Part shown: one piece after another, positions 9,954 through 52,605 of the stretch
How positions within the stretch are numbered: the first letter of the stretch is position 1
How the letters are laid out: every line of letters begins with the position of its first letter
Source of the DNA: Phycisphaerae bacterium
Lineage (GTDB): Bacteria; Planctomycetota; Phycisphaerae; UBA1845; Fen-1342
Length of the DNA stretch: 64,000 nucleotides
Assembly (NCBI GenBank): GCA_028277645.1
Contig: JANQFV010000037.1
Span: forward strand, 1-64,000
Direction of reading: 5' to 3'
Notes under the pieces: generated by a model
Seen by the model: the letters and a program-made list of their open reading frames with translations, nothing else
What the model was told of the DNA's origin: nothing
The model's database searches: none
Program-made: the position numbers and the translations under genes

Positions 9954-10008
9954 CTATCTGGTACGTGACTGCGCGATACGGAACGTCAGCGTACAGGACG
10001 AAGTCCGA

Positions 10009-10046
10009 GTTTCGGCTTTTCGGCTTTTCGGCTTTTCGGCGTTTGG
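10009..10046 (+). repeat. Short tandem array, exact 8-nt period: GTTTCGGC|TTTTCGGC|TTTTCGGC|TTTTCGGC|GTTTGG
   Basis: Read directly. Confidence 0.95.
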
Positions 10047-23312: not shown

Positions 23313-23727
23313 GGCGGAGTGGGCCTGGCGGCCGCCGGCGATTTCGTCGGAGGAAAGTCCGAACTGGACAGGGCACGGTGATGGCTAACAGCCACCGGGC
23401 GCGAGCCCAGGGAAAGTGCCACAGAAAACACACCGCCGACGGAGCGCGTGGGAACGTGGGCAAGTGTGGACGTGATCACGTTCCCACCTTCCCACGTTCC
23501 CACGCCTCCGGGTAAGGGTGAAAAGGTGCGGTAAGAGCGCACCGCGCGGACGGCGACGTCCGCGGCAGGGTAAACCCCACCGCCAGCAAGCCCAAATAGG
23601 AGGCGAGAGCCGGCCCGGCTCGCTATCAGCCTCGGGTAGGGTGCTAGAGCCCGTCGGCAACGGCGGGCCCAGATGAATGGCCGCCGCCTGAAAAGGCACA
23701 GAATTCGGCTTACCGGCCCACTCCGCC
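23313..23727 (+). ncRNA. rnpB: RNase P RNA (bacterial type A-like)
   Basis: P1 GGCGGAGTGGGCC/GGCCCACTCCGCC; GAGGAAAGTCCGAAC; CAGGGTAAACCCC; ACAGAATTCGGCTTAC. Confidence 0.96.
23446..23505. repeat. Palindromic array of 8-nt GTG-initiated units inside rnpB
   Basis: Perfect 15-nt arms gcgtgggaacgtggg/cccacgttcccacgc around centre GTGATCAC. Confidence 0.95.
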
Positions 23728-23789
23728 CTGTCTTCACCCCAGCCGCGCTGCGTACGCAGCGCACGGGATATCCGCTACGATACCCCACC

Positions 23790-50660: not shown

Positions 50661-52403
50661 ATGTACCGCTGCACGTTACTCCTCCTCATCATCCTCACCT
50701 TCTCATGTACAACCCTCGCCGCCGACCCGCCCTGGATCGCCCGCAGCAAGCTCGGCATGGTCGCCAGCGACTCCCCCGAGGCTTCGCAGATCGGCGCCGA
50801 CGTCCTCGCCGGCGGCGGAAACGCCTTCGACGCCGCCATCGCGACCTCCTTCGCCCTCGCCGTCGCGCGCCCGCACAGCACCGGCCTCGGCGGTGGCGGC
50901 TTCCTGCTCGCCTACGTTGCCGAGCAGCAAGACTGCACCGCGCTCGACTTCCGCGAGTCCGCGCCAGCGGCAGCCACCAGAGACCGCTACATCAAGCTCC
51001 ACGCCGACCGCGGCGATGGCCCCTCGCCCAGCATCTACGGCGGAAACGCCATCGCCGTCCCGGGCCAGCTCGCCGGGCTTGCCGAAATCCACAAGAAATA
51101 CGGCACCAAGCCCTGGGCCGAGCTGGTCGCGCCGGCGATCAAGCTCTGCCACGACGGCTTCGTTGTCGACAAGTCCTTTCGCGGCGCCTGTAAGGACGCC
51201 CTCGCCGACTACCAGCGCTGGCCGGAGCTTCGGAAGTCGTGCGGTCGACTATACGAAACGCTGCTTAATAACGGCGACCTGCCCGAGATCGGCACGCGCA
51301 TCCGCCGCCCGAATCTCGCCCGCGCTCTGCAACTGATCGTCGAACACGGCGCCGACGCGATGCGCACCGGCCCGCTCGCCGAGGCGGTCGTGAAGGCCGC
51401 GAACAACGCCGGCGGCAAGATGACGCTCGCCGATCTGGCGGACTATCGCGTCAAGCCGCGCTCGACGTTGCGGGCCAGCTTGGCCAGTAACTGCGAGGTC
51501 TTCTCGATGCCGCCGCCCTCCTCCGGCGGCATCTGCCTGATCCAGATGCTGGAACACTACAACCACGTGATGCTGAGTTCCCTCATTCGCGAGTGGTCGC
51601 GTCCCTATCACATGATGACCGAGAGCATGAAGCACGCCTTTGCCGACCGCGCCCGTTGGCTCGGCGATCCGGACTTCGCCGACGTGCCGACGGAACGTCT
51701 GATCAGCCGCGAGCACATCAACACCCAGAAGATCGACTACAACACCACGCACCCGCCCGAGTGGTATGGCGGAACACTGCCGCCGCCGGACGACAGTGGT
51801 ACGTCGCACTTCTGCGTCGCGGACCGCTTCGGCAACGTCGTCTCGCAGACCGAGACGATCAACGGCACCTTCGGCTCGCTGGTCGTCGCCGAGCCGTTCG
51901 GCGTCATCCTCAACAACGAGATGGACGACTTCGCCACGAACCCCGGCCAGCCAAACATGTTCGGCCTGATCCAGGGCGAGGCCAACGCCGTCGCGCCGGG
52001 CAAGCGACCGCTGTCGAGCATGACGCCGACGATCGTCACGCGCGACGGCAAGCCCATCCTCGCGCTGGGCGCCTCCGGCGGCCCGCGCATCATCACGTCG
52101 GTCTACCAGGTACTGATTCGAGCAACGTGGGAACGGCAGGACCTCGCAACCGCGATGCAGGCCTTGCGCCTGCACCACCAGTGGCTGCCGAACGAGATCT
52201 ACTTCGACCGCGCGCCGCAGGAGAAGGTGGAATTCGCCGGCAAGAAACGTACGCTGGTCGAGTACCTGGAGAGCTACGGCCACAAGATCGCCACCAAACG
52301 AAAGACCGGCATAGTCCAGGCCATCCAGATCCAACCCGACGGCACGATGATCGGCGCCAGCGATCCGCGGAAAGGCGGGCGGCCGGCAGCGCCGGCAAAG
52401 TGA
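50661..52403 (+). CDS. ggt: Gamma-glutamyltransferase
   Basis: GGNAFDAAIATSFALAVARPHSTGLGGGGFLL; DSGTSHFCVADRFGNVVSQTETINGTFGS nucleophile region. Confidence 0.95.
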   Translation: MYRCTLLLLIILTFSCTTLAADPPWIARSKLGMVASDSPEASQIGADVLAGGGNAFDAAIATSFALAVARPHSTGLGGGGFLLAYVAEQQDCTALDFRESAPAAATRDRYIKLHADRGDGPSPSIYGGNAIAVPGQLAGLAEIHKKYGTKPWAELVAPAIKLCHDGFVVDKSFRGACKDALADYQRWPELRKSCGRLYETLLNNGDLPEIGTRIRRPNLARALQLIVEHGADAMRTGPLAEAVVKAANNAGGKMTLADLADYRVKPRSTLRASLASNCEVFSMPPPSSGGICLIQMLEHYNHVMLSSLIREWSRPYHMMTESMKHAFADRARWLGDPDFADVPTERLISREHINTQKIDYNTTHPPEWYGGTLPPPDDSGTSHFCVADRFGNVVSQTETINGTFGSLVVAEPFGVILNNEMDDFATNPGQPNMFGLIQGEANAVAPGKRPLSSMTPTIVTRDGKPILALGASGGPRIITSVYQVLIRATWERQDLATAMQALRLHHQWLPNEIYFDRAPQEKVEFAGKKRTLVEYLESYGHKIATKRKTGIVQAIQIQPDGTMIGASDPRKGGRPAAPAK

Positions 52404-52431
52404 CAAAGTGAAAACGTGACAAGGTGACAAG
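52400..52431 (+). repeat. Short tandem array, 8-nt period: GTGACAAA|GTGAAAAC|GTGACAAG|GTGACAAG
   Basis: Read directly; overlaps the ggt stop codon. Confidence 0.95.
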
Positions 52432-52565
52432 GGCAGACGCGGCGAACGTCGGCGGACGGGCGCGGCGTGCGACCGGTAAGACCGGGCCTGCGCGGCCTGA
52501 CGGGGAAGGGTATCAAGATACTCAAGGTTGCGCCCTCTCGTTTTGATACTCTTGGTCCGGCGGAG

Positions 52566-52605
52566 GTGGGGAGGTGAGAATGTGAGAATGTGAGAAGGTG
52601 GGTAT
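52566..52605 (+). repeat. Short tandem array, 8-nt period: GTGGGGAG|GTGAGAAT|GTGAGAAT|GTGAGAAG|GTGGGTAT
   Basis: Read directly. Confidence 0.95.

Follow-up and report, generated by a model that had tools for sequence, protein, structure and literature searches.

The rnpB gene lies on the plus strand of a 64,000-nt stretch of a planctomycete genome, referred to below as the window, whose proteins match those of Phycisphaerae bacterium RS_17_44 (74% over 1336 aa) and of other Planctomycetota. Its product belongs to the bacterial type A RNase P RNAs: in cmscan it matches RNaseP_bact_a (RF00010) over the full model (1-367) with 286.1 bits (E 1.8e-92; cut-off 100), which is above the gathering score, and a search of the whole genome returned this one match only. 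The gene contains an extended hairpin built largely of 8-nt units, and related arrays lie elsewhere in the window. The features are as follows.

23316..23728, plus strand: rnpB, RNase P RNA, bacterial type A (cmscan, RF00010; single copy in the genome)
23440..23510, plus strand: extended P12 hairpin (covariance-model alignment and RNA fold, 31 predicted pairs)
23446..23500 (approximate), plus strand: 55 extra nt in the terminal loop of P12, inserted between positions 136/137 of the type A model (covariance-model alignment)
23446..23460, plus strand: left outer arm GCGTGGGAACGTGGG (sequence inspection)
23472..23479, no strand assigned: self-complementary centre octamer GTGATCAC (sequence inspection)
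23491..23505, minus strand: right outer arm, the reverse complement of the left arm (sequence inspection)
52396..52432, plus strand: intergenic octamer array (GTGACAAN/GTGAAAAC), directly after the gamma-glutamyltranspeptidase gene
52566..52605, plus strand: intergenic octamer array (GTGRGAAN)
10007..10046, plus strand: octamer array of a different unit (TTTCGGCN, i.e. NGCCGAAA) on the 5' side of a DUF58 gene

A preliminary description of this DNA had reported a palindromic 8-nt array at 23446-23505, with both strands registered around GTGATCAC and with perfect 15-nt arms, and the array is exactly of this form. On the plus strand, positions 23448-23479 read GTGGGAAC, GTGGGCAA, GTGTGGAC, GTGATCAC, and on the minus strand positions 23503-23472 read GTGGGAAC, GTGGGAAG, GTGGGAAC, GTGATCAC. 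The outer units keep the 8-nt register exactly, and within the left arm it loosens at units 2 and 3. All 15 nt of the left outer arm (23446-23460) are complementary to the right one (23491-23505), and the 64-kb window has no other perfect inverted repeat of this kind (15 nt or longer, within 75 nt). The 89-nt segment 23430-23518 has a predicted folding energy of -56.7 kcal/mol versus -32.9 kcal/mol for shuffles (z = -7.08; matched by 0 of 200 shuffles). The location in P12 had previously been inferred from position; since the cmscan alignment puts the extra letters between model positions 136 and 137, it can now be regarded as a result. In the same alignment the core of rnpB is intact despite the insertion.

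Arrays elsewhere in the genome and within its genes

The intergenic octamer arrays earlier noticed at 52400 and 52566 are present, the first with units GTGACAAA, GTGAAAAC, GTGACAAG, GTGACAAG (52400-52431) and the second with units GTGGGGAG, GTGAGAAT, GTGAGAAT, GTGAGAAG, GTGGGTAT (52566-52605). Period statistics were obtained from a 464-kb sample (10% of the genome) comprising the window and 400 kb of further sequence of the same genome. At a strict threshold, 15 clusters of period 8 and 7 of its multiple, period 16, were found, all remaining periods in the range 4-30 gave 0 or 1 cluster each, and an order-2 Markov control gave 0 clusters at every period. A looser threshold yields 16-17 array loci in the sample, depending on how overlapping clusters are merged. 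The units differ between arrays, and include GTGGGAAN, GTGRGAAN, GTGACAAN, AGGGACGN, AGGCACGN, GCCGAAAN and TCCTCGAA. Within GTGGGAAN arrays, seven positions of the unit are invariant and the eighth varies. Some arrays form inverted pairs, facing one another across a spacer of ~40 nt, with arms that are not identical at the variable eighth base. The dimer GTGGGAANGTGGGAAN, characteristic of GTGGGAAN arrays, occurs 40 times in the whole genome against 0 for a reversed-pattern control; the Markov and reversed-pattern controls together rule out a chance origin of the arrays.

The arrays showed neither a target-site duplication nor a conserved core, so that the term mobile element, in its strict sense, is unsupported. 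A search of the genome for a transposase partner, in which Y1_Tnp alone was tested, found none, the one match being below the cut-off, and RAYT/IS200 was consequently rejected as the driver. A separate dispersed hairpin of ~54 nt, at 52500-52556 in the window (GGGTATCAAG...TTTGATACTCTTGGTCCGG), recurs in the genome as ~10 partial copies, and at two or more sites a hairpin of this type is immediately followed by an octamer array.

Beyond what the preliminary description covered, arrays were found in frame within conserved genes, and this is the case for 7 of the ~16 sampled loci. The proteins concerned are UvrA, Mfd, MurD, ArgRS and MiaB (genes uvrA, mfd, murD, argS and miaB). A UvrA-type protein of 1691 aa contains three in-frame octamer arrays with different units (L111 11022-16097, genome C71). 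As 8 is not divisible by 3, an octamer repeated in tandem encodes an identical eight-residue peptide in all three frames; an example is VGTWERGN, with VPTFPRSH on the opposite strand. The units in these genes are mostly stop-free on both strands, as are 46% of all octamers, so that this property is permissive rather than special. Mfd of the window genome carries two array inserts, of 108 and 87 nt (L106 6154-9759, genome C23). At both spots many relatives have linkers of 0-51 nt (L260-L285), and other repeats occupy the linkers in some genomes: GTGGGAAC in G005, AGGCACGN in G021, a GTGATNNG-type palindrome in G008 and GATCGAGG in G015. These two linkers, with different inserts by genus, are a protein counterpart of the P12 spot.

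P12 in the order, the family and the class

P12 was compared across 55 genomes of the order to which the window genome belongs (lengths in G045 and G046 being read by eye). The apical segment is shorter than 60 nt in 35 of the 55 (median 25 nt) and measures 67-231 nt in the other 20. Most of the long P12s are strong palindromes, with sequences unrelated to one another. GTGGGAAN octamers are found in G000, G009, G016 and G025, GTGAAAAC in G022, GTGACAAN in G012, GTCGAAAN in G041 and G059, GGGTTCA heptamers in G013, CGTAGGGTGGGC in G021 and G049 and AAAAAGGTGTCAGGAACC in G039, amongst others. The inserts of G009, G025, G041, G059, G039 and G021 have dispersed copies in their own genomes. In G039 (L012) the long palindrome of P12 is nearly perfect and includes AAAAAGGTGTCAGGAACCTTTTTT, of which the same genome has dispersed copies. 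The Mfd tree of the family implies at least five changes between long and short P12. Thus the earlier suggestion of a dispersed array in a tolerated loop of an essential RNA holds good: the P12 array is an insertion with respect to both the model and most relatives, and it matches the array family of its genome. Relatives do not share an equally long, aperiodic P12, which would have spoken against this view: most have ~25 nt, and 14 of 25 long ones have 7 or 8 as their best period.

Amongst the family genomes, those with the GTGGGAAN octamer in P12 contain 40, 36, 60 and 6 GTGGGAANGTGGGAAN dimers, whereas 18 of the remaining 19 have 0-14 (p = 0.004 in a one-sided rank test, which takes no account of genome relatedness). 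G005, which groups with the window lineage on the Mfd tree, has the most arrays (283) yet a P12 of 15 nt. Array abundance alone is therefore no predictor of P12 colonisation, and loss or chance absence of the array also occurs. The P12 arrays of G009 and G016 are probably one shared insertion, in which the outer stem unit has been altered on both sides, from GTGGGAAC/GTTCCCAC in G009 to GTGGAAAC/GTTTCCAC in G016, with wobble pairs occurring. At the level of sequence, and in a small sample, this compensatory change fits with selection for an RNA helix. rnpB is absent from the draft assemblies of two same-genus partners, G008 (paired with G025) and G026 (paired with G016). The single-contig genome G057 has two RNase P RNA genes (L009 and L038), both scoring above 300 bits. 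A general invasion of structured RNAs can be rejected, tmRNA in the family being near its normal length: it measures 351-399 nt in the 21 family genomes, out of 27, that gave an above-cut-off match, and a second match in G017 measures 328 nt.

In the class as a whole, 117 of 120 genomes gave an RNase P RNA match, in most cases ~350-590 nt long. Twenty of these genomes were picked by length for inspection of P12, so the share of long P12s among them cannot be read as a rate; long palindromes occupy P12 in many of them, in some cases with heptamer arrays, and P12 has been filled repeatedly in the class. A best period of 7 or 8 (lags 5-12, at least 12/16 matches) was obtained for 14 of 25 long P12s, from several families, and all nine significant cases (p <=0.02) have a lag of 7 or 8. 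About half of the long P12s are palindromes lacking this period. A 7-nt unit is present in the P12 of G013, G100, G105, G135, G139 and G140.

In G100 and G135 the P12 unit is the heptamer GTAGKCA, tandem dimers of which number 119 and 15 in the respective genomes, many of them as inverted pairs. Of six members of family f13 which do not have this P12 array, five contain no GTAGKCA dimer and the sixth contains one, and there are none in the window genome, which belongs to another family. This case is an independent replication of the link between a P12 array and the dispersed arrays of the same genome. A search for GTGGGAAN arrays gave at least 80 loci, with Phycisphaerae frequent among the matches listed. 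Such arrays are seen in many phyla, including Verrucomicrobia, Bacteroidetes, KSB1 and Chlamydiota (L144-L223), often with a preferred eighth base in each genome.

The length of P12 varies widely across bacteria, and several of the long P12s examined here have no period. It might then be supposed that P12 is simply a variable helix in which the octamer look is coincidental. This appears highly improbable in view of the exact register on both strands, the dispersed copies and the period of 7 or 8 in every significant case, and it is contradicted by the dispersed GTGGGAANGTGGGAAN and GTAGKCA dimer counts.

Origin and maintenance of the P12 array

The sequences establish where the array lies, its palindromic form, its dispersal in the genome, its repeated turnover amongst relatives and the presence of in-frame copies in essential protein genes. 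The P12 hairpin is very probably one resident member of a population of inverted tandem arrays of short period that extends throughout the genome. In the form envisaged, an array would comprise a run of an 8-nt (elsewhere 7-nt) unit, a short spacer and then the reverse complement of such a run. Once transcribed, it would fold as one long helix, and an array at the tip of P12 would therefore only lengthen a length-variable arm, leaving the catalytic core unchanged. The array may be a mildly selfish or neutral passenger that stays within a working, uncut RNase P RNA. Its retention there would reflect the tolerance of P12 to extension, and its retention in genes the fact that the units used read stop-free in all frames. 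Its spread is envisaged as transposition-like; arrays could move or be re-created either through copying by a trans-acting enzyme, or through local seeding followed by slippage and template switching.

Alternatively, P12 may have lengthened locally, through slippage of replication on a short seed, its arms being matched by hairpin-templated correction (quasi-palindrome conversion), so that its likeness to other arrays would reflect a shared mutational bias. The confinement to periods 7 and 8, with many unrelated units, is what a mutational process might yield, and the arms of the dispersed pairs, with their differences at the eighth base, are inexact as inverted copies. However, a process blind to sequence would not produce a P12 unit that is also the abundant unit of its own genome, as is the case for GTGGGAAN in G000, G009 and G025 and for GTAGKCA in G100 and G135, and a purely local origin seems unlikely.

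Less likely still is that the long P12 and the arrays are functional adaptations serving as binding sites for a protein, such as a nucleoid or regulatory factor. A role of this kind has been suggested for the octanucleotides of Geobacter metallireducens, inverted pairs of which are listed as predicted global regulator binding sites in the account of that genome (PMC2700814), and the conserved heptamer part of GTGGGAAN, with its variable eighth base, could be viewed in the same light. Against this, sister genera carry unrelated palindromes in place of the P12 sequence, G005 lacks it, and the arrays lie within essential coding sequences and rnpB without positional logic.

In a broader scheme, the inverted 7/8-nt arrays of many phyla would form one class of spreading element, defined by period and not by sequence. 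Their propagation would depend on a mechanism not yet described, for instance a polymerase that is templated or resembles telomerase, with P12 and certain protein linkers as favoured landing sites. This is put forward tentatively, as a possibility rather than an expectation.

Across a bacterial class, repeats scattered through a genome have time and again occupied the same arm of an essential ribozyme, and genes for DNA repair, the cell wall and tRNA charging carry such a repeat in frame. P12 thereby provides a natural record of the array family active in each lineage. The strict 7/8-nt period common to unrelated units is an unexplained regularity, which could point to the mechanism.

Comparison with known repeat systems

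In Nostoc, the STRR in rnpB are reportedly heptamers located in P12. STRR inside rnpB are known from heterocyst-forming cyanobacteria (Vioque 1997, Nucleic Acids Res 25:3471, as referenced in PMC2858038), and P12 is cited as dispensable in cyanobacteria. The window genome resembles these organisms in having its dispersed short tandem repeats inside the RNase P RNA gene: a tandem repeat of period 8 lies in P12 (model 136/137), and the repeat is dispersed in the genome (40 dimers, control 0). The unit is of 8 nt (7 nt in some relatives) rather than a heptanucleotide, and the best named relatives of the host are Phycisphaerae/Planctomycetota rather than heterocyst-forming cyanobacteria. Unlike STRR, the planctomycete arrays are inverted, many unrelated units and palindromes replace each other at one spot, and essential protein genes also carry arrays in frame.

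Rickettsia palindromic elements (RPE; Ogata 2000, 2002, reviewed in PMC2229807) are located between genes and in frame in conserved protein genes. They are also found in the genes for tmRNA and M1 RNA (RNase P RNA), and form families of 105-146 bp with a recognisable sequence (PMC2229807). Dispersal between genes, in-frame insertion in conserved protein genes and a site in the RNase P RNA gene are properties in common with the arrays described here. By contrast, these have no common sequence over 105-146 bp, the octamer arms alone being shared whilst the spacers differ, and, unlike the situation with RPE, tmRNA is of normal length in the family of the window genome.

Multicopy sequences of G. 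metallireducens consist of 4-5 tandem 7/8-nt units, often as opposite-strand pairs with a variable gap, and one heptanucleotide family is found within genes as well (PMC2700814). Their units, GTTGCTYN, GGACCGG and MTYCTGA, are interpreted in that account as regulator sites or RNA elements. The window arrays are likewise tandem octamers, some in inverted pairs; they differ in their units, and RNase P RNA goes unmentioned in the part of PMC2700814 that concerns these repeats. GTAG-tagged REP repeats are short dispersed palindromes known in Planctomycetes (PMC3733652), and the CGTAGGGTGGGC-type P12 palindrome of G021 and G049 may be of this kind. The window array does not have the GTAG stem and Y1 transposase of the GTAG REP/RAYT system, its arms being of GTGGGAAN and the sole Y1_Tnp match sub-threshold.

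No report of such arrays in planctomycete RNase P RNA was found in the literature consulted, which was mostly open access. The preliminary description had drawn a parallel with the intervening sequences of 23S rRNA; the STRR in rnpB and the RPE are better parallels.
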